Source: Hondaea fermentalgiana
Taxonomy: Eukaryota > Sar > Bigyra > Thraustochytrida > Thraustochytriidae
Reading direction: 5' to 3'
DNA: 64,000 nt
Assembly: GCA_014084085.1 (NCBI GenBank)
Contig: NPFB01000005.1
Span: 248,001-312,000, forward strand
Each line of letters begins with the position of its first letter. The first letter of the stretch is position 1. Below the pieces are notes generated by a model. It worked only from the letters and a program-made list of their open reading frames with translations, was not told the origin of the DNA and did no database searches. A program made the position numbers and the translations under genes. Below, one piece after another: positions 25,252-52,918 of this stretch.

Positions 25252-25488
25252 GCAGCTGTTCTACGAAGCAAATGATGGAAGCCGCTGGGCCTGACGTGCC
25301 GCCTGATATCTTTTTTCATTGAATAATCGAAACTTTACACCAACACCACAAGTAATGATGTGACTTGACTCGCAACGGATCTATGGCAATGTGTCGAGAA
25401 AAAGCGGTCGGGGATCGCCCAATGACATCTGCAGCTCGCGACTTGGTTCTTGCAAAGCGCTCTCTGCGCGCGCTGTGTGCGCGCCACC

Positions 25489-25941
25489 ATGTTTGACGAG
25501 GCGCTGCTCAGCTCGCGAGACGTGACGTGGTGCAGACAGCATCTTGAGGAAGCTGCCTTGGCAAGCGCGACCGGACCCGCCGCGCAAAGAGACGCGCAAC
25601 CGGCAGACCCAAGTCAACTGCCCACCGAGCTGCTCTTTGAGGCTCTCTGCCTCGCACGGCGTTGCGAATGGTCATGGGAATGCACGCGCGAAACCTTTAT
25701 CATTCTTCTGGAAGTCCTCGCGTTCGAGCGTGACGAGCCTCTATGTACAATGATGCAAAGTTTTGAAAAGTTCAAGCAGCTACTCGTTGTAAAAAGCTGC
25801 GAGCGTCCTCCATGGACGATTGGGCTTTTCACGCCAGAACAAGCCAATGATCTTACCCGCTTCATCCTAGAACACCACTACAAGCACTTTGCAATGCACA
25901 AGCATCTGACAGCCACTCATCGACCAGTGCTGGAACTGTAA
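25489..25941 (+). CDS. CFAP119/CCDC189-like (DUF4464) protein
   Basis: 150 residues from an ATG in an ideal context (GCCACCATG); the open frame upstream begins only with TTG. The compact helical protein with ERPPWTIGLFTPEQA followed by FILEHHYKHFAMHKHL resembles the conserved C-terminal block of CFAP119 (CCDC189, C16orf93), a sperm and cilium protein whose family shows a similar RPP-[FW]S-x-x-[LV]F-[NT]-PEQ pattern followed by a tyrosine/histidine-rich helix. It is shorter than the animal protein and keeps only this core. No signal or membrane segment. 237 nt downstream of the spliced unknown gene on the same strand and convergent with the chromodomain-membrane gene. The assignment is from motif memory, not a search. 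Confidence 0.6.
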   Translation: MFDEALLSSRDVTWCRQHLEEAALASATGPAAQRDAQPADPSQLPTELLFEALCLARRCEWSWECTRETFIILLEVLAFERDEPLCTMMQSFEKFKQLLVVKSCERPPWTIGLFTPEQANDLTRFILEHHYKHFAMHKHLTATHRPVLEL

Positions 25942-26111: not shown

Positions 26112-27545
26112 TTAGGATTTTGATGTAGCTTGCCGAGAGACACGTACCTCCTCGTAAATCGAGGAGGCAGTGGAAGACAAAAGGGCCAGAAGACCAAAAG
26201 CCGTATGAATCAACAAAAATACAAGAGTGTCGTCTCCTGAGCTTGCGGGGGATCCTGAATGAAAGGAGTTTATTGGACGGATATCTTCAAAATGACGGAG
26301 TTTGGCCTTTGTACATACATAGCAGACGCACACCACAAGCTCTGACAAGATGAATAGGTTTAGCTCTTGTGTACGAGAGTTGGGTGTTGGAATGGCCTTG
26401 ACTACAAGTGCAAAGCTGAGACAAAAGTGTGCTGCAGATAGGGCCTTTAGCAAGGGTTTCCTGTGATCTTGTACGCTCTGTATCACAAACAGACCCAACA
26501 CAGTGTATGTGATGACAAGAAAGGCCATTGCAAGCACACGCTCAAGCACGACCAAAGGAGATGTTTTTCGTGTGGGTGTCCTATCCATTACTATGTGGAT
26601 TGCGGCCGGAACAAATACTGCCATACCTCCGAATATCAGCTCCAAAGAATCAACATCAGAAGCATCTCGAAAGAGAAGATTGAAAGCGAAGCAGGCGGTT
26701 GCAATCCCCCGAAAGAGGTTGGCAGGCGACTTTGGGATAGAACAACCAATTCGAAAGAGACAAGCCAAGACAAAGAGACCTGTCAAAATCTCTTGCGCCG
26801 AAGACATGCGTTTCTCATCGGTCAGAAACGAGCAACAAGCAGAAGCGGCTGCAAGTTCGTTTGGATACTCCACTGGTATTTGCAGACGTTTTGCATCCAT
26901 TATCAGAGTGCAAAGCGCGTAGAGATTGAGCTCTTTCATTCCCTCAAAAGTCATGTGCTGGAAAAGTCGTAGCCTTCCTATGACACCGTTGTATGTTCTC
27001 CCGCTTGCAGCCTGTTCCTTTAGCATTGCAAGACAGACTTTAAGGATAACAATTAAAAGGGAACACAGGAACAGTAGGCCGAGCAGTGAATTGTCTCCTG
27101 ACGTCAAGTTGTTCGACATGGACTGTCCCGATTGAACCTCCTGCGAGGTTTGTCCTGCCGAAGACTCTGAGGCATGGTCAGTTTCTTTGACTGGAATCTG
27201 CTCAGAAGAAGAAGAGGGGGGCGACGAGGGCGATACGGATGATGATATCTTCTTGGAGCGAGCCTGCGGGGTTTTGGAACGAGTCCGCCGCTTTCGGCCA
27301 AGTTTGGATCGTGGCGCAGAAGCCGCTTTGAGGGCAGCGTCGTAACTCTCGACTTGCGTCTTGAATCCATCGTAAATGAGGTCTTTGCGCGTCTCCCACG
27401 TGTTGTGTTCGTCGCCGTGATCTTCCCATTTGACGAGGTACTCTTGTACGGTCGCGCCTTTCCGCTTGACCTTGCGTCGGCTCAAAATTTTCTCAATGTG
27501 GACATCCTCGTTGTCGTCGTCGTCGCTCGTTGACTCGTGTCTCAT
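26112..27545 (-). CDS. Chromodomain-polytopic membrane fusion protein, paralogue A
   Basis: 477 residues from the ATG at 27545 (the open frame upstream opens with TTG). Residues ~13-70 form a chromodomain (HIEKILSRRKVK, QEYLVKWEDH, NTWETRKDL). Compared with HP1-type domains the aromatic cage is incomplete: the first aromatic is Val15 and the third His43, only Trp40 remaining. Residues 80-100 are basic (KLGRKRRTRSKTPQARSKK), a likely nuclear localisation or DNA-contact region, then a Ser-rich linker. From ~153 to 462 there are about six to eight hydrophobic spans (for example 154-174, 252-270, 303-320, 336-357, 440-460). The loop DRTPTRK (321-327) is shared with paralogue B. The architecture suggests an integral inner-nuclear-membrane protein with a nucleoplasmic chromatin reader, analogous in plan to lamin B receptor but not homologous by any motif I can see. 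Confidence 0.82.
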   Translation of the reverse strand: MRHESTSDDDDNEDVHIEKILSRRKVKRKGATVQEYLVKWEDHGDEHNTWETRKDLIYDGFKTQVESYDAALKAASAPRSKLGRKRRTRSKTPQARSKKISSSVSPSSPPSSSSEQIPVKETDHASESSAGQTSQEVQSGQSMSNNLTSGDNSLLGLLFLCSLLIVILKVCLAMLKEQAASGRTYNGVIGRLRLFQHMTFEGMKELNLYALCTLIMDAKRLQIPVEYPNELAAASACCSFLTDEKRMSSAQEILTGLFVLACLFRIGCSIPKSPANLFRGIATACFAFNLLFRDASDVDSLELIFGGMAVFVPAAIHIVMDRTPTRKTSPLVVLERVLAMAFLVITYTVLGLFVIQSVQDHRKPLLKALSAAHFCLSFALVVKAIPTPNSRTQELNLFILSELVVCVCYVCTKAKLRHFEDIRPINSFHSGSPASSGDDTLVFLLIHTAFGLLALLSSTASSIYEEVRVSRQATSKS

Positions 27546-28094
27546 GGTTTGAGGCGAGGTTTTCCTCAAAGCGAAGCGAAGAAGGAAAGCAGGACGAGCG
27601 CGCGCCGCGAACAGAGACCCGCGTGAGACGGTCTGTCTTTTCTTTCGCGAGCAACGCGCAGTATCGTTGTGTGGCCAAGGTTAGCTTTTGGATTTCTAGT
27701 TTCTCCAAATCTTCGTTTTTACAGTTAGTTTTCCAAGACGCAGTTCGATAAAGCGATCGACAGCGAAATGGCGTTCTCACGTGCTTAAAGCACTTGGAGC
27801 CTGCAGACTTTACGCCATTTGGCGTATAAGATCATAACTTTAGACAAGAATCTTCTTTTCCGATAATGCTTTGACTCCTCTTAACGTTTATTTTGGTGTA
27901 TAAAAAGAAAGCAATGCAAAAGGGGTACGTGTTGGCCTTGCGCTTGACGCATATTTTCTTGTCGAGATGATCACCCAGTCTACCCAAGCCTAGGCCTAGG
28001 CCTCACGAAGGCATCATCATGCATGGGTTCATCTTTTTGCCTGCCTGCCTGCTTTACTTTCCTTTTTGCGCGCTGTCACAGCTGAAGTAGCACC
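27546..28094. other. Intergenic region between chromodomain-membrane paralogues
   Basis: 549 nt: promoter and leader of paralogue A plus the 3' region of paralogue B. AT-richer around 27830-27920. It includes a CCTAGG-repeat palindromic patch at about 27988-28002. No gene seen. Confidence 0.55.
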
Positions 28095-29552
28095 CTAGGG
28101 ACGGTGGAACATGATGGCAGAGCACATGAAAAGGACTCCATTGGTAAGCCCGAGAATGTTGTGCAGAATATCAAAATGAGGCAAGGTGACGTCATGCATC
28201 TGGCCATCGAAGCCTGCAACCTGAAAGGTCTCTGGGCCCGGAATCTTGCCCGCATGCTTGGGATGAAGCTTTGCCAACGCCACCATCACATAGAGTACGC
28301 CGCAAACGGTTCCAGCGAGCTCAAGCGAGAGATAAAAAGGAGCACCGCCTCGAGACCCAACGAGGCTTGCGAGGAAACGCGCCAGTCCCCGGCAAACGTT
28401 GAAGAGGGCGATGGTGCCAGTTCCGTACAGGTACCTGGTATCGAAATCGGCATTTTCCTGTTCGTACTGCTTGTATACGATGGCAAGAATGGCCACGAAG
28501 CCCAGGACGGAAAGAACATTTGCGATAGCATCCGCCATTTTCTTCTTACGGAGAGCGTGCTCCTTGGTAGGCGTTCTTTCATCGCCAGAAAAGAGAGTCA
28601 GGAGGACGAAGAGCTGCCAGAGGAGGAGCGTAAAGATGTGCTTGGAGAATTCGCCGGGCTCGGTCATGTTACTCTCAGGGAACACCTTGGCTGTGGCCTC
28701 TACAAAGAAGGTCATGGCAATCCAGATCATGACGACAGCCGAGAGAAAAGCAAAGTCGGTCGAATGCCCGTAGCGAAGGGTGTAAAGAGCAGAGATGACC
28801 ATTGGCGCTGGGTCCGTGAGAACTGACGCCATGTGCAGACGCTGCAAGTCGGTTACCTCATTGTTAGTCTTGCCATCTGGAGCAGTGTATTTGAGGTCCA
28901 TGCGCAGAATCTTCCAGGTGACGCTGAGAAGCCACGAGCCGAGGAAGAGAAGGAGGAAGTGAGCCGCAAAGTTGCCCGAGGTCGCGTTGGCAATGTCCTG
29001 CTGCGAGAGGTTTGCCGCGAGTGCCGCCTGATCCTGAAGGGCCGAGGCGTCATCCGTGACATCCTCCTCACCTCCATCATCTTCATCGTCGTCCTCTTCT
29101 TCGACGTTATCGTCGGCTTCTTGGTCCGCTTCCTCCTCCTCCTCGTCTTCCTCCTCGGCCACATCTTCGTCGCCGTTCTCCTCTTCCACTTCCTCTTCCT
29201 CTTCTTCTCCTTCTTCTTCTTCGTCATCGTCGTTGCTCTTTGGGGGAGTGCGCTTGCTCGGCGTCTTGGAGCGACGACGCTTTGAGGACGTAGACTTGGA
29301 GGTCGTGGCAGTGCTCAGACTGGCATCGTGTTCGTCAACTTCGCGGGTGTAGCCATCGGCGATCAGGTCTGTGCGCGTCTGCCAGGTGTTGTCATCGCTG
29401 TCGTAACCTTCCCATTTAATGAGGTATTCGAACTCAACGCGGCCGCCGTCAAGCTGGATCTCACGACGCGACAAGATGACCTCAATCTTGTAGTCCTCTT
29501 CTTCCTCGTCGCCGATGATCGCCTCCTCGGGGGCGAGCTTCTCGGCGGCCAT
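28095..29552 (-). CDS. Chromodomain-polytopic membrane fusion protein, paralogue B
   Basis: 485 residues from the ATG at 29552; the open frame extends upstream only from a GTG. Chromodomain at ~20-78 (DYKIEVILSRR, FEYLIKWEGYDSDDNTW) with a full HP1-like aromatic cage: Tyr21, Trp47, Tyr50, so binding of a methylated histone lysine is plausible. A basic stretch KRRRSKTPSKR (91-101) is followed by ~60 residues nearly all Glu/Asp (108-168). From ~196 to 482 it is polytopic (spans near 196-215, 265-290, 305-322, 342-361, 376-395, 408-427, 463-482). Linker RSKTP and loop RTPT (326-329) are shared with paralogue A, supporting common ancestry over the whole length. Tandem, same strand, 549 nt apart. 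Predicted inner-nuclear-membrane chromatin tether; the compartment is inferred from the architecture only. Confidence 0.85.
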   Translation of the reverse strand: MAAEKLAPEEAIIGDEEEEDYKIEVILSRREIQLDGGRVEFEYLIKWEGYDSDDNTWQTRTDLIADGYTREVDEHDASLSTATTSKSTSSKRRRSKTPSKRTPPKSNDDDEEEEGEEEEEEVEEENGDEDVAEEEDEEEEEADQEADDNVEEEDDDEDDGGEEDVTDDASALQDQAALAANLSQQDIANATSGNFAAHFLLLFLGSWLLSVTWKILRMDLKYTAPDGKTNNEVTDLQRLHMASVLTDPAPMVISALYTLRYGHSTDFAFLSAVVMIWIAMTFFVEATAKVFPESNMTEPGEFSKHIFTLLLWQLFVLLTLFSGDERTPTKEHALRKKKMADAIANVLSVLGFVAILAIVYKQYEQENADFDTRYLYGTGTIALFNVCRGLARFLASLVGSRGGAPFYLSLELAGTVCGVLYVMVALAKLHPKHAGKIPGPETFQVAGFDGQMHDVTLPHFDILHNILGLTNGVLFMCSAIMFHRP

Positions 29553-30254: not shown

Positions 30255-31815
30255 TTACATGAGCAGGCACTTTGAGTTGGAGCGCATGAGCTCGGCGTCA
30301 GATGCGTCGAGCGGGAGCTTGCCGCGGCGGTATCTGTTGAGGATGTCAGCCTGGAGCGCCTTTTCGTCGACGTGAAAGCTGAGCACGCGAGAAATATCCG
30401 TCATGTGGTCAAAGATGGCGACGAAATCGTCGAACTCGGGCATGTCGCTGGGCAGGACCTTGACTTTGTGGACATCGGGAAGCTTGCGCTCTTCGTTGGC
30501 AGCAATCTCAGACTCAGACTCGGCGTAAACGACGCCCGAATCCGGGGTCCACACGGGCTCGTGTGTGGCAGTCCGAATGGTATCGAGATCGAGCGGCTTC
30601 CAGATGCCGTGTTCTGGGTCCAGCACTTCATTGGCCCCGCCTCCAAGGCATCCGAGGCGCTCCTGCACGTCGCGCTCGAGGAGCTGCGAGACAAAGAGAG
30701 CGACGCGCTTGGGGAACCCTGGCGGGTAGTGAACAGGCGCGTGCAGAGTGGCCTCGTTACGTGAGCTGTAGCCTGTAAAGCGGCGCGAGAATGGATTGAA
30801 GCCCGCAAAGAGTTCGTAGACACAAACGCCATAGCTCCACCAGTCAGCATCCTGGCCGTAGCGCTCACCGCTGAGGACCTGCGGGGACCAATAGCCCACA
30901 GTGCCGGCACGTCCTCGAATAAGCTTGCCGTTGCCGACATTGACGGCGAGGCCAAAGTCAGAGATGCGGCAGCGACCTCGAGCGTCGAGCAGAATGTTGC
31001 GCGGTTTGAGGTCACGCATGACGTATCCGAGGGAGTGGATGTGACCGAGGCCGTGCGCAATTTCTGCCGCATAGACGAGCGCACGTTTGTGCGGGAGGGG
31101 TCCCTTTGACAAATGGAAGCGAAGATCGCCGGCAATGGCAAGCGGGAGCACAAAGTGAAAGGACTCCTTTGTCTGGTATGCGTAGAGGAGGCGCATGCAA
31201 TAGGGAGAAGGCTTGTTAGCAAGAGCTTCCAGAACCCGTCGTTCGGACTTGACTTGAGAAAAGGTGCGACGGAATTTGACAAGCTTTTTGGGCATGACCT
31301 TCATGGCCATGGGGCGGCCAGTGTGCATGTGCATGCAGGCATACACACGGCCCGTCGCGCCGCGGCCAAGCACGCGCAGCTTGGTAAAGTGCGAATCCTG
31401 TACAGGGCGCATTGCAAATGACTTGATGCGGCAGTAGTTGCGCATGGAGGCCTTGTGTGCACAGAAGCGAAGGAACATGGGTTCGCAAACGGTGCTAATG
31501 AGAACCTCGATGGCTTCGTTGAGGCCGATTGTGCGCTCCGAGTGCAACTTGCGCAGCGAGACAATCTGCCGTCGGCGCTCCTGCGCGCGAAGATGATTAA
31601 TGGAGTTTGCTCTTCGAAGCTTGGTGACGGCGCTTGTGAGGGGAAGGTCGGAAAACGTGCTGGAGAATCTCCGGCGGTCTGTCTCGCCAACTCGCGACGT
31701 GCGCCTACCGTTGGAGTCGGCGTCGTCGTCGGCACCGTTCTTCAGAGCGCGGGTAGCCTCAGTCCCTTCGTCTGCTTCGTGTCCGTCAGGGAAATCAGAG
31801 ATGGAATAGGCATCA

Positions 31816-31848
<33 letters not shown>

Positions 31849-32789
31849 ATCTCGTGGTCGACTTCGCCATCGAGTTCCTGATCATCTTGATTTCCGTGGT
31901 CATTTTCGTCCTGTTCCAGCGGGTCGAGATGGTCAGGAAGGCCGCCAAAAGCCTCCTCACGCGAAGCTGGAAAATCGATGGAGCCGACGCTGCCGGGCAA
32001 GCGGCGCACGCGCAAAAGCGAATGAAACTCGTCGTCTGGATGATCGACAATGGTGCTCGCCTTTTTCAAAAGCTCGGGGACGGGGAAATCACTGCGCGAT
32101 GCGTTTTCGTCGTTGGCACCGATGAGTTCATCTTCATCATCTTGAGTGGCCCGATCTGGTCCAGACTCTGAATCCTTGCCTTCGTCGCTGCTGCTCGCAA
32201 TTGCAGCGGCGTCGCCCGAGTCGTGCGCCATGGCCTCGTCAAGTACAGAGGCGAGAGTTTTTTGCACGGCAGGGTCGAATCCGTGGGCAGAAAGACCACG
32301 CAGAACGGGTTCGAGAATGTCGAGATCGTAGTGACGAATGAGGAGCACGACGATGCTGCGAGAGACGGAGTTAGAAGGATCTGCGCGTTTTCGCGCGTAG
32401 AACGCGTTGACAAACTTGAGAAAGGTGGCTTCGTGCTGATCGGGGAGTCCGTGGATGGAGGAGTCGTCGGAGAAGCTCGATACCGAGGTGGTGTCATCCA
32501 GTATATCATCGATGAGTCCAGCGGAGTCTGTGGCTCTAGAGAGGGGTGTACCGCGTTGTTCTTCGGCGGTATGTGCGAGCTTGTATTCGAGATCAGCGAA
32601 TTTTCGGAGAAACCATACACCAATGGGCTCCTTGATGAGGGTGTGCAGGTCGACGTCGGCCATGCCCGTGACTTTGCGTGAGGACAAGGTCCGCGGGAGC
32701 TCGGGAATGCGGCGGATCGGGCGCCGCTTCAGGTCCAGCATGGCCTCCTTGTACTTGGCCTCATGGAGGATGGTGGAGAGGTCTTCCAT
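30255..32789 (-). CDS. GRK-like RGS-homology protein kinase with C-terminal CaaX box
   Basis: 844 residues from the ATG at 32789 (the open frame continues upstream from a GTG). The N terminus MEDLSTILHEAKYKEAMLDL resembles GPCR kinases. An RGS-homology region starts near residue 55 (EPIGVWFLRKFADLEYK, then FLKFVNAFYARK), is interrupted by a long acidic linker with a poly-Asp run (31809-31850) and probably resumes before the kinase. Kinase domain at about 465-735: GRGATGRV, AMKVMPKK, MRDLKPRNILL (HRD changed to MRD), SDFG, and GTVGYWSPQVL with the APE glutamate replaced by Gln. Then an AGC-type C-tail. It ends CLLM, a CaaX box predicting farnesylation, as in some GRKs. Likely phosphorylates activated GPCRs at membranes. 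The active-site substitutions are mild; activity is probable. Confidence 0.88.
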
Positions 32790-42665: not shown

Positions 42666-43457
42666 ATGACGCTCATGGCTCTTTCGGCAGCAGCCAGGGC
42701 TTGCGCAAAACGAGGCGCGTCCCTTCAAGGCGTACGCGCGTTCCATGGTGCGGCTGGTCTGCAAAACACGCACACGGAAAAGTGGACCAACATGTGGACC
42801 GAGAAGTTTCAAGAGACGCAGCCCTTTTGGCACATCGACGCGGTCAACAAGCGTCTCCTGCAATTCAAAGACGAGTTCATCCAACACGGCGCAAGACACA
42901 GCTTCCTCGTGCCTCTCTGTGGCAAATCGCTCGACCTGATCTGGCTCTCTCAGTTTGGCTTTGTTGCCGGTGTTGAAATCTCCCAGGATGCCATCGATCA
43001 GTTTCGTGCAGAGAATCGCCTAGAGTGGGATGCCACCGCGCTTGAGCAAAGCGACAAAGCACTCTTCCGCGCGACCGTACCAAGCACGGCAAATGAGGTC
43101 GCGATTGCTAAAATGGACTTTTTCAATCTTCCGCCCGGCTGGAGCGACATCGGGGCCTCCTCAAGACGGCGCAAGTTTGACCGCGCATGGGATCGCGCGG
43201 CCCTTGTGGCCATTGATCCACCCATGCGATCCGAGTACGTCGACGCTTTTGTTCAACAGCTTTCCAACGATGCTGTTGTGCTGCTCAGCTCCTTCGTGTA
43301 CCCCGAAGGTGCACATGCGGGGCCGCCGTTTTGCGTTCCAGAGACCGAGGTCCGCGCTCTCTATGAGCCATACTTTCACGTCGACCTCCTCATGCAGCGC
43401 CCAATTCCCATGGATCAGACAGAAGAACTCGTTTTTCTCATGAAGCGTAAATGTTGA
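42666..43457 (+). CDS. TPMT-like SAM-dependent methyltransferase, copy 1
   Basis: 263 residues of the thiopurine S-methyltransferase family. SAM-binding core: FLVPLCGKSLDLIWLSQFGF then VAGVEISQDAIDQF; downstream KMDFFNLPPGW, DRAALVAIDPPMR and the C-terminal EELVFLMKRKC. The first ~30 residues (ALSAAARACAKRGASLQGVR) are basic and Ala/Ser-rich without acids, a likely mitochondrial presequence. The native substrate is unknown; family members methylate thiols or selenium/halide compounds. Tandem with copy 2, 890 nt away on the same strand, with strongly similar cores and different leaders. It would produce S-adenosylhomocysteine, the substrate of AHCY. Confidence 0.9.
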   Translation: MTLMALSAAARACAKRGASLQGVRAFHGAAGLQNTHTEKWTNMWTEKFQETQPFWHIDAVNKRLLQFKDEFIQHGARHSFLVPLCGKSLDLIWLSQFGFVAGVEISQDAIDQFRAENRLEWDATALEQSDKALFRATVPSTANEVAIAKMDFFNLPPGWSDIGASSRRRKFDRAWDRAALVAIDPPMRSEYVDAFVQQLSNDAVVLLSSFVYPEGAHAGPPFCVPETEVRALYEPYFHVDLLMQRPIPMDQTEELVFLMKRKC

Positions 43458-44347: not shown

Positions 44348-45184
44348 ATGCTTCAAGGCTTGATCTCAGCTCCGCTTCGCCGCGTCTTTGGACTCGGCGC
44401 GGCCGCGACTCTTCTCTCGCTCGGCGCGACTGCCGCGGGAGCGTCTGCCGGCAATGCCATGTGCCAAGGCGAAGATGGCGAGGCCACCGAGCCAGAGCAT
44501 CTGGAGATGTGGCTCAAGCGTTGGACGACACAATACAAGACAGAAAAACCCGGATTCCACATGGAGGCTGTCAATCCCAATCTAATCAAATACCGGGAAC
44601 AGTTTATCACGGGCGAAGGTCCGCGCAACTTCTTCGTTCCACTCTGTGGCAAGACCCTGGACCTCTTGTGGCTGGCTCAGTTTGGTTTTGTGGGCGGCGT
44701 CGAGATTTCGCAAGACGCCATCGACCAGTTTGCCGAGGCAAATGGGCTGTCTTGGGACAAGGAGGCCATCGAAAAATCAAACAAGGCCCTTTTTCGCGCC
44801 ACTGCTCCGGGCTCTGGGAATCAGCTCGCCATCGGCAAGATGGATTTTTTTAATCTGCCCGACGGCTGGAGCGATCTCGGCGAGTCCCAAAAGCACAAGT
44901 TCAACTTTGTCTGGGATCGTGCCTCTCTCGTCGCCATCAACCCGCCCATGCGTCAGGATTACGTCAAGACCATTGTCGAGCAGTGCACTCCGGATGCCAA
45001 GGTTTTGCTTTGTACCTTTGACTATGCTCCTGGCGTCCGCGAAGGACCTCCGCATGCCGTGTCGGAGGCTACCGTGCGCGAGCTTTTCGAGCCCTTCTTC
45101 GTCGTCGATCTTCTCGACCGTCATACGACACCCATGCCGGAAACCGAAGAGCTCGTTTTCCTCATGAAGCGCAAATCCGAATAA
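44348..45184 (+). CDS. TPMT-like SAM-dependent methyltransferase, copy 2
   Basis: 278 residues from the ATG at 44348 (context CCACCATG; the open frame starts at a TTG 12 nt earlier). Core as in copy 1: FFVPLCGKTLDLLWLAQFGF, GGVEISQDAIDQF, KMDFFNLPDGW, DRASLVAINPPMR, C-terminal EELVFLMKRKSE. The N-terminal ~35 residues (MLQGLISAPLRRVFGLGAAA, then Ala/Gly-rich) look like a mitochondrial presequence with a hydrophobic stretch, possibly a membrane-tethered or bipartite signal. The leader shares little with copy 1 although the catalytic domains are close, so targeting may have diverged after duplication. Substrate unknown. Confidence 0.9.
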   Translation: MLQGLISAPLRRVFGLGAAATLLSLGATAAGASAGNAMCQGEDGEATEPEHLEMWLKRWTTQYKTEKPGFHMEAVNPNLIKYREQFITGEGPRNFFVPLCGKTLDLLWLAQFGFVGGVEISQDAIDQFAEANGLSWDKEAIEKSNKALFRATAPGSGNQLAIGKMDFFNLPDGWSDLGESQKHKFNFVWDRASLVAINPPMRQDYVKTIVEQCTPDAKVLLCTFDYAPGVREGPPHAVSEATVRELFEPFFVVDLLDRHTTPMPETEELVFLMKRKSE

Positions 45185-52255: not shown

Positions 52256-52918
52256 TTAGAGTGCCCGTGCAAGAAAGACTCCAGCTGCGACAACAGCCGC
52301 GGTAGCCGCGGCCGCGAAAATGTAGGCGTCAGCCTCGCTAGGCGCGTCCGGCTCAGGAAGCGGGGTAGACTTGGGCTTCTTTGCCTTGGGTGCGACGAGA
52401 CGCTTGACCTGGGCAGCGCCCTGGAGCTTGCCAACGACGAAGCCATTGGCCGTTGCGCGAGCCTCCTCGGAGTGCCCGATCTCGGCAAACTGACGAGTGG
52501 CATCCCGGCCTGAGACATCGACAATGACCTCGACTCCACCGGGGTGATCGAGGAGAAATTTCGTGACGTCGTAGACGAGGCCGTGCACAGCGACCCAGCA
52601 GTCCTCTGCGGTCGTGTGTTTGGCGAGTTCTTCGGGGGAGATTTCATTCAGGGTCGCGTCGGCACTCTTGGGAGCACGTTTGACACCCTCGAGCGTGCCA
52701 ATCAGGAAATCCTCGCGCCGCGTGAGGGCTTCATCGGAGTGACCAATCTCTGCAAACTGCCGCGTGGCATCCGTCCCCGCGACATCCGTGATCGGGTCGC
52801 CGCCGCCAGGATGTTCGCTCAAGAACGAGGTGACATCGTACACTTTACCTCCAATCGCCACCCAGCAATCCTTCTCGCTCGCGTGCTTCGCGAGCTCCTC
52901 CTTGCTGACCTCGCGCAT
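52256..52918 (-). CDS. Tandem cytochrome b5-domain tail-anchored protein
   Basis: 220 residues with two cytochrome b5 heme domains (about 4-80 and 93-168). Each keeps both axial histidines: FLSEHPGGG (His36) with EIGHSDEA (His60), and FLLDHPGGV (His125) with EIGHSEEA (His149). A Lys/Pro linker precedes a C-terminal hydrophobic helix (about 199-217) ending ARAL, so it is predicted tail-anchored in ER or outer mitochondrial membrane with the domains cytosolic. Most b5 electron donors (to desaturases, elongation hydroxylases) have one domain; a tandem form is less common. The two domains are similar enough to suggest internal duplication. Divergent from the DDX6 gene over 1.5 kb. Confidence 0.92.
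   Translation of the reverse strand: MREVSKEELAKHASEKDCWVAIGGKVYDVTSFLSEHPGGGDPITDVAGTDATRQFAEIGHSDEALTRREDFLIGTLEGVKRAPKSADATLNEISPEELAKHTTAEDCWVAVHGLVYDVTKFLLDHPGGVEVIVDVSGRDATRQFAEIGHSEEARATANGFVVGKLQGAAQVKRLVAPKAKKPKSTPLPEPDAPSEADAYIFAAAATAAVVAAGVFLARAL

Follow-up and report, generated by a model that had tools for sequence, protein, structure and literature searches.

A 64,000-nucleotide stretch of the Hondaea fermentalgiana genome (contig NPFB01000005.1, positions 248,001 to 312,000; hereafter the window) carries two adjacent genes, P0001 and P0002, each of which encodes a single-frame fusion of an N-terminal chromodomain with a series of hydrophobic spans. The explanation that we favor, although tentatively and as somewhat short of an even chance, is that the pair constitutes a chromatin-membrane tether resembling the lamin B receptor (LBR) but of independent origin, in which P0002 would be the reader and P0001 a divergent paralogue; the topology, localization, ligand and tethering function implied by this explanation are what we infer from the two sequences.

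Architecture of the gene pair

Both genes lie on the minus strand and each consists of one uninterrupted, intron-free frame. P0001 (477 residues; 26112..27545, running from 27545 to 26112) comprises a chromodomain, a basic Ser-rich linker and about eight hydrophobic spans, and P0002 (485 residues; 28095..29552, running from 29552 to 28095) a chromodomain, a basic cluster, an acidic linker and likewise about eight spans. P0002 is the upstream member, with 549 bases separating it from P0001. Calculated from base-composition stop frequencies, the probability of such a frame being open at random is ~2e-10 for P0001 and ~6e-9 for P0002. The window (G+C 0.48-0.65), part of a eukaryotic genome of 36 Mb in 238 contigs, contains further long single frames of 2222, 1653 and 927 residues; given that long single-frame genes are usual in it, a hidden intron in P0001 or P0002 is possible, not expected. 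A search for the omega-3 protein PfaA gave fragments below its cut-off (best 461.9 of 1010.1 bits), and matches were also obtained in 11 of 14 controls; taken together with the long single frames and the G+C content, these fragments would point to a labyrinthulomycete.

The chromodomains match Pfam PF00385 above its cut-off, at residues 16-69 of P0001 (27339..27500, minus strand; E 7.2e-12) and at residues 21-64 of P0002 (29361..29492, minus strand; E 1.1e-8). They are paralogous by sequence, with 47% identity over 70 residues (BLASTP) that continues past the Pfam model into a common RxDLIxDG(F/Y) stretch. A profile made from the two chromodomains finds CBX5 as its top match in the PDB (8.9e-11), followed by CBX1, CHD1-type proteins and Swi6 (among the best 60 of 81 matches), and phmmer scores to CBX5 and Swi6 are 34-36 bits. 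The aromatic cage of HP1 consists of Tyr20, Trp41 and Phe44 in mouse HP1 beta and of Tyr24, Trp45 and Tyr48 in Drosophila HP1a (PMC4776139; this and the other papers are cited for the part of their text that was available). All three cage residues are kept in P0002, as Y21, W47 and Y50 in alignments to Swi6 and CBX1. Among the matches listed, the HP1/CBX5/Swi6 chromodomains are those nearest to the pair by sequence; unlike HP1, however, P0001 and P0002 have no chromoshadow match in Pfam, and a membrane part stands in its place.

Behind the chromodomain each protein has a basic cluster, defined by its count of Lys and Arg (K+R), that resembles a nuclear localization signal (NLS) and may act as one, at residues 79-99 of P0001 (27249..27311, minus strand) and residues 86-104 of P0002 (29241..29297, minus strand). 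RSKTP occurs within both clusters, at about an equal distance behind the chromodomain. The cluster is followed by a Ser-rich stretch in P0001 and by a very acidic one in P0002, the latter (residues ~108-170; 29043..29231, minus strand; defined by its Asp and Glu count) probably being disordered to judge from its composition. The N-tails, of 156 residues in P0001 and 194 in P0002, contain 17-25 basic residues, that of P0002 having 72 Asp and Glu versus 17 K+R. No signal peptide is visible by eye, and the first ATG of each frame lies directly ahead of the chromodomain. Weak matches of the acidic linker (to Mitofilin, NPR3, Pox_Ag35, MutL and others) are below the Pfam and NCBIfam cut-offs and look compositional. 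Two SUN-domain matches are present in the genome; the SUN-domain protein L021, examined from codon 34 of its open frame, has a similar N-tail, in which a basic cluster and a long acidic linker precede the main span. In yeast, polytopic membrane proteins are actively imported to the inner nuclear membrane by virtue of an NLS combined with a disordered linker (PMC4695851).

The membrane parts, delimited by Kyte-Doolittle analysis, cover residues 157-458 of P0001 (26172..27077, minus strand), with hydrophobic peaks at 157, 253, 274, 301, 337, 364, 394 and 440, and residues 195-480 of P0002 (28113..28970, minus strand), with peaks at 195, 241, 266, 305, 342, 381, 408 and 462. Each has eight peaks of at least 1.1, a number reached by 76 of 500 shuffles of the P0001 membrane part, for which it is not unusual given the composition, and by none of 500 for P0002. 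At a threshold of at least 1.6, seven peaks are observed in P0001 and five in P0002, compared with means of 3.05 and 1.54 after shuffling, and these numbers were matched by only 1 and 2 of 500 shuffles, respectively; the 15 other window genes examined have at most two such peaks each.

Neither membrane part reaches a Pfam or NCBIfam cut-off. At E<=10 Pfam gives no match to that of P0002 and two below cut-off to that of P0001, neither of them ERG4/ERG24, and a PDB search with both parts returned nothing significant (best E 0.076 and 0.45). No second copy of either was found in the genome, where each retrieves only itself at E<=10 (1 and 2 candidates scored). Region 14-84 of P0002 likewise retrieved itself alone among 21 candidates in a protein search; none of 95 pattern matches in viral contigs and none of 594 in prokaryote genome contigs was confirmed, and P0002, the sole query used against phages, had no match there. 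A family in which a chromodomain is joined to a membrane domain was not found in the literature searched, in which subscription journals are mostly not covered. Membrane-anchored chromatin readers are already known as a kind; it is the combination of a chromodomain with this anchor that we could not find.

With respect to the relationship of the two membrane parts to each other, BLASTP of P0001 against P0002 gives a significant alignment in the chromodomain region only. Local alignment of the membrane parts reaches z 2.0-3.4 (two kinds of shuffle), limited to the ~60 residues surrounding span 1; end-free global alignment (z 0.1-1.5) is not clearly above shuffles, hhalign gives E 0.016 over 74 columns yet a probability of 2.8%, and MAFFT alignments of the pair are unreliable beyond span 1. 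The sequence evidence for homology of the membrane parts is suggestive only. The simplest history would be that the genes arose by tandem duplication, after which the spans diverged rapidly and P0001 drifted further than P0002.

The initial annotation had described two adjacent same-strand genes that fuse a chromodomain with about six to eight hydrophobic spans, an architecture for which it knew of no described family. The fusion is confirmed, in two single open frames, the chromodomains being assigned by Pfam and HP1-class by profile and the peaks numbering about eight in each protein; no family was found for the membrane parts, in searches that hardly sampled eukaryotes. The basic linker that it assigned to both proteins stands as an NLS-like cluster in each, but P0002 is basic at ~86-104 only and strongly acidic thereafter.

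A candidate chromatin-membrane tether

LBR has a reader at residues 1-60, a basic RS segment at 61-89, a linker to residue 211 and eight spans, and its N terminus is nucleoplasmic (PMC5617974), as is its C terminus. P0001 and P0002 have a plan close to this one, with an N-terminal reader, a basic segment, a long linker and about eight spans, with N-tails of 156 and 194 residues versus 211 in human LBR. The components differ: in LBR a Tudor domain is joined to a sterol-reductase membrane domain, whereas the pair has a chromodomain and a membrane domain of no family. The LBR Tudor fusion is restricted to Metazoa (Koreny and Field 2016, PMC5630835). A Pfam scan of P0001 and P0002 found no Tudor domain, both ERG4/ERG24 matches of the genome lie away from the pair, and L019, the one ERG4/ERG24 protein scanned, has no Tudor match. 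The proposal that the pair evolved independently of LBR is supported by these observations.

On the explanation that we favor, the pair would be tandem-duplicated integral membrane proteins of the endoplasmic reticulum (ER) or nuclear envelope, the N-tails of which face the cytosol or nucleoplasm. With its basic cluster and flexible linker, the protein would pass through the pore and reach the inner nuclear membrane, where the chromodomain would bind a methylated lysine, most likely one in a histone tail, thereby holding chromatin against the membrane, as LBR does by means of its Tudor domain. P0002 would be the competent reader, and P0001, a paralogue short of most of the cage, may have another or weaker ligand, or may be a non-reading partner or a decaying copy.

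Other systems resemble the pair in part. To our knowledge, CEC-4 of C. elegans has no transmembrane part. This chromodomain protein holds H3K9me chromatin at the nuclear periphery, which parallels the role proposed for P0001 and P0002, and the word 'transmembrane' is absent from the available main text of the review describing it (PMC7649781). The Heh1/Heh2/Man1 (MSC) proteins have a chromatin-binding N-terminal region, an NLS and a disordered linker, followed by spans (PMC4695851, PMC5630835), and are thus similar to the pair in having a chromatin-binding-type N-tail, NLS, linker and spans; their LEM-like/HeH and MSC domains, however, were not found by Pfam in P0001 or P0002.

Several observations weigh against such a tether. 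P0001, aligned with CBX5, keeps one of the three HP1 cage residues (V15, W40 and H43, with V15 one residue ahead of the Pfam match) and, two of the three being gone, is probably incapable of reading methyl-lysine in the usual way. Residues 175-485 of P0002 retrieved P0002 alone from the protein collection, no orthologue being found (8000 candidates scored), and whole P0001 had no match, itself included (7999 scored); both searches scored just those candidates that share most words, in a collection that seems poor in eukaryotes, and because eukaryotes were hardly sampled the missing homologues are weak evidence.

The tether model requires the N-tail to be on the cytosolic or nucleoplasmic side. 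The K+R distribution beside the spans instead favors an N-out arrangement in 8/8 topologies tried for P0001 and 4/4 for P0002, with margins of 1 to 5 and 1 to 8, respectively. The 15 residues ahead of span 1 have no Lys or Arg in either protein and the 15 after it have 2 and 4; N-x-S/T sequons, which in both proteins precede span 1 by 6-14 residues, would suit a lumenal tail, though they are close to the membrane. Our single polytopic control, L019, whose orientation is assumed from its relative LBR, shows this distribution around span 1 as well (1 Lys or Arg before and 3 after). Since this pattern occurs in L019 while the LBR N terminus is nucleoplasmic, the charge measure is not decisive, and on general grounds we lean towards an N-in topology for both proteins.

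The histone methyltransferases of the genome also bear on the tether. No match to Chromo_shadow, Pre-SET, the VEFS-Box of SUZ12 or MSC was found in the genome, nor in any control genome, because of which their absence is not proven; loss of HP1, Su(var)3-9 and PRC2 is possible on these searches, which had no positive control. A PDB comparison of three of the 17 SET matches places L011 nearest SETD2, and L012 (a 132-residue segment) and L013 nearest MLL1, so that these proteins best resemble the SETD2/ASH1L (H3K36) and MLL (H3K4) enzymes. The H3K9 enzyme EHMT2 ranks lower for L011 and L013 and is not in the best 60 of 82 matches for L012. In a further SET protein, L015, the PRDM2 PR domain is matched below cut-off (23.2 of 27 bits), and the H3 of the genome (L025) has a canonical tail with K4, K9 and K27. 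The chromodomain is HP1-class, whereas the three writers compared appear to be of H3K4/H3K36 type. The earlier proposal of a membrane-anchored histone reader for peripheral heterochromatin is therefore retained only in part: the HP1-class chromodomain, single-frame fusion, NLS-like clusters and LBR-like plan are in its favor, but the P0001 cage is lost, the charges lean lumenal, and the term heterochromatin is unsupported because the searches for Pre-SET and SUZ12, which had no positive control, gave no match.

Alternative explanations

An alternative that we consider unlikely, though deserving of serious weight, is that the chromodomain serves as a protein-protein module in a protein of the ER or another endomembrane, with no role in histone reading, and may even be lumenal. 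Chloroplast SRP43 binds the tail of a membrane insertase through its chromodomains, and cpSRP43 is among the weak matches of the pair profile (0.0021; within the best 60 of 81). Such a module would fit the N-out charge distribution, the sequons preceding span 1, the loss of the P0001 cage from a chromodomain that is otherwise kept, and the combination of no Pre-SET or SUZ12 match with compared SET proteins nearest to H3K4/H3K36 enzymes. It fits less well with the full cage of P0002 and with a profile that favors HP1 by many orders of magnitude; the basic clusters and lack of a visible signal peptide speak against translocation of a tail of 156-194 residues, and the charge pattern is shared by span 1 of L019, yet the LBR N terminus is nucleoplasmic.

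The possibility that P0001 is a decaying, pseudogene-like copy, such that P0002 alone matters, is compatible with the tether explanation for P0002, but we regard it as improbable. Coding statistics were scored against six other window genes, for which the G+C content at third codon positions is 0.60-0.91; the membrane parts of P0002 and P0001 have values of 0.66 and 0.45, respectively. The coding scores of P0001 are negative for both the linker and the membrane part; one antisense frame scores slightly above the true frame in the membrane part, and two to three others, same-strand and antisense, outscore it in the linker (-0.127 and -0.052 versus -0.254). Two cage residues are lost and the spans are barely alignable with those of P0002. 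Against decay, all 477 codons are open, and P0001 retains its basic cluster, the core of the chromodomain and the number of spans; we take P0001 as coding but drifting, because its frame is open and its architecture is common to P0002.

Derivation of the chromodomain from a protein of the elongation factor 3 (EF3)/New1 type, which would tie ribosomes to the ER membrane, is very improbable. The chromodomain core of L003, an EF3/New1-type ABC protein of the same genome, is similar to those of the pair, matching both (BLASTP 33 bits, 37-39% identity) above the CHD-type segments compared, and all three share ILSRR and, behind the domain, a helix-like stretch. The pair profile nevertheless ranks HP1 first, with no EF3/New1 protein in the best 60 of 81 matches; by eye L003 has only the Trp of the three cage residues, and the phmmer scores to CBX5 and Swi6 are about equal to the EF3 BLASTP score, though from a different program. 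L003 also differs in having ABC ATPase modules, none of which were found by Pfam in P0001 or P0002.

Least probable of all is that the fusion is only apparent (an effect of two distinct genes, of an unrecognized intron or of a join in the assembly), as the drop in P0001 codon statistics between chromodomain and remainder might suggest, given that two neighboring open frames have the same architecture, that the true frame of P0002 has the top codon score across all three segments, and that P0002 is in the protein collection as a 485-residue protein, although that entry may come from the same assembly and not be independent.

Genomic context and implications

Nine of 11 chromodomain candidates in the genome are above cut-off, in seven proteins, i.e. 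P0001, P0002, L003 and four with a SNF2 domain (L002, L006, L007 and L005/L027). The SNF2 ATPase domain of these four, as in CHD remodellers, is missing from P0001 and P0002 by Pfam. L002 is a remodeller with a bromodomain, by position between its two chromodomains, and L027 is a 2216-residue frame with several PHD-type fingers.

Within the window, a protein kinase (30255-32789, minus strand; 4.8e-49) lies directly upstream of P0002, and a CLAMP-domain frame (a flagellar C1a complex subunit; 25426-25941, plus strand; 5.1e-14), from which the organism probably has a flagellate stage, sits shortly past the 3' end of P0001. Another tandem pair in the window encodes TPMT-family methyltransferases (42666-43457 and 44348-45184, plus strand; Pfam 4.6e-41 and 5.7e-39), and a small protein with two cytochrome b5 domains and one hydrophobic peak is encoded at 52256-52918 (minus strand).

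A bolder and rather doubtful proposal is that, in a lineage without canonical HP1, Su(var)3-9-type writers and PRC2, the sole stand-alone HP1-class reader is membrane-anchored, such that mark reading and chromatin placement would be one act, with P0002 as reader, P0001 as non-reading partner and a new anchor family shared by both. Little is settled about the way in which protists that lack LBR or emerin retain chromatin at the nuclear envelope. If the tether explanation is correct, an HP1-class reader and a polytopic anchor in one polypeptide would amount to an LBR evolved by convergence and would be easy to test, and may provide a route to identifying the mark in an organism where the usual H3K9/H3K27 machinery was not detected in the present searches.

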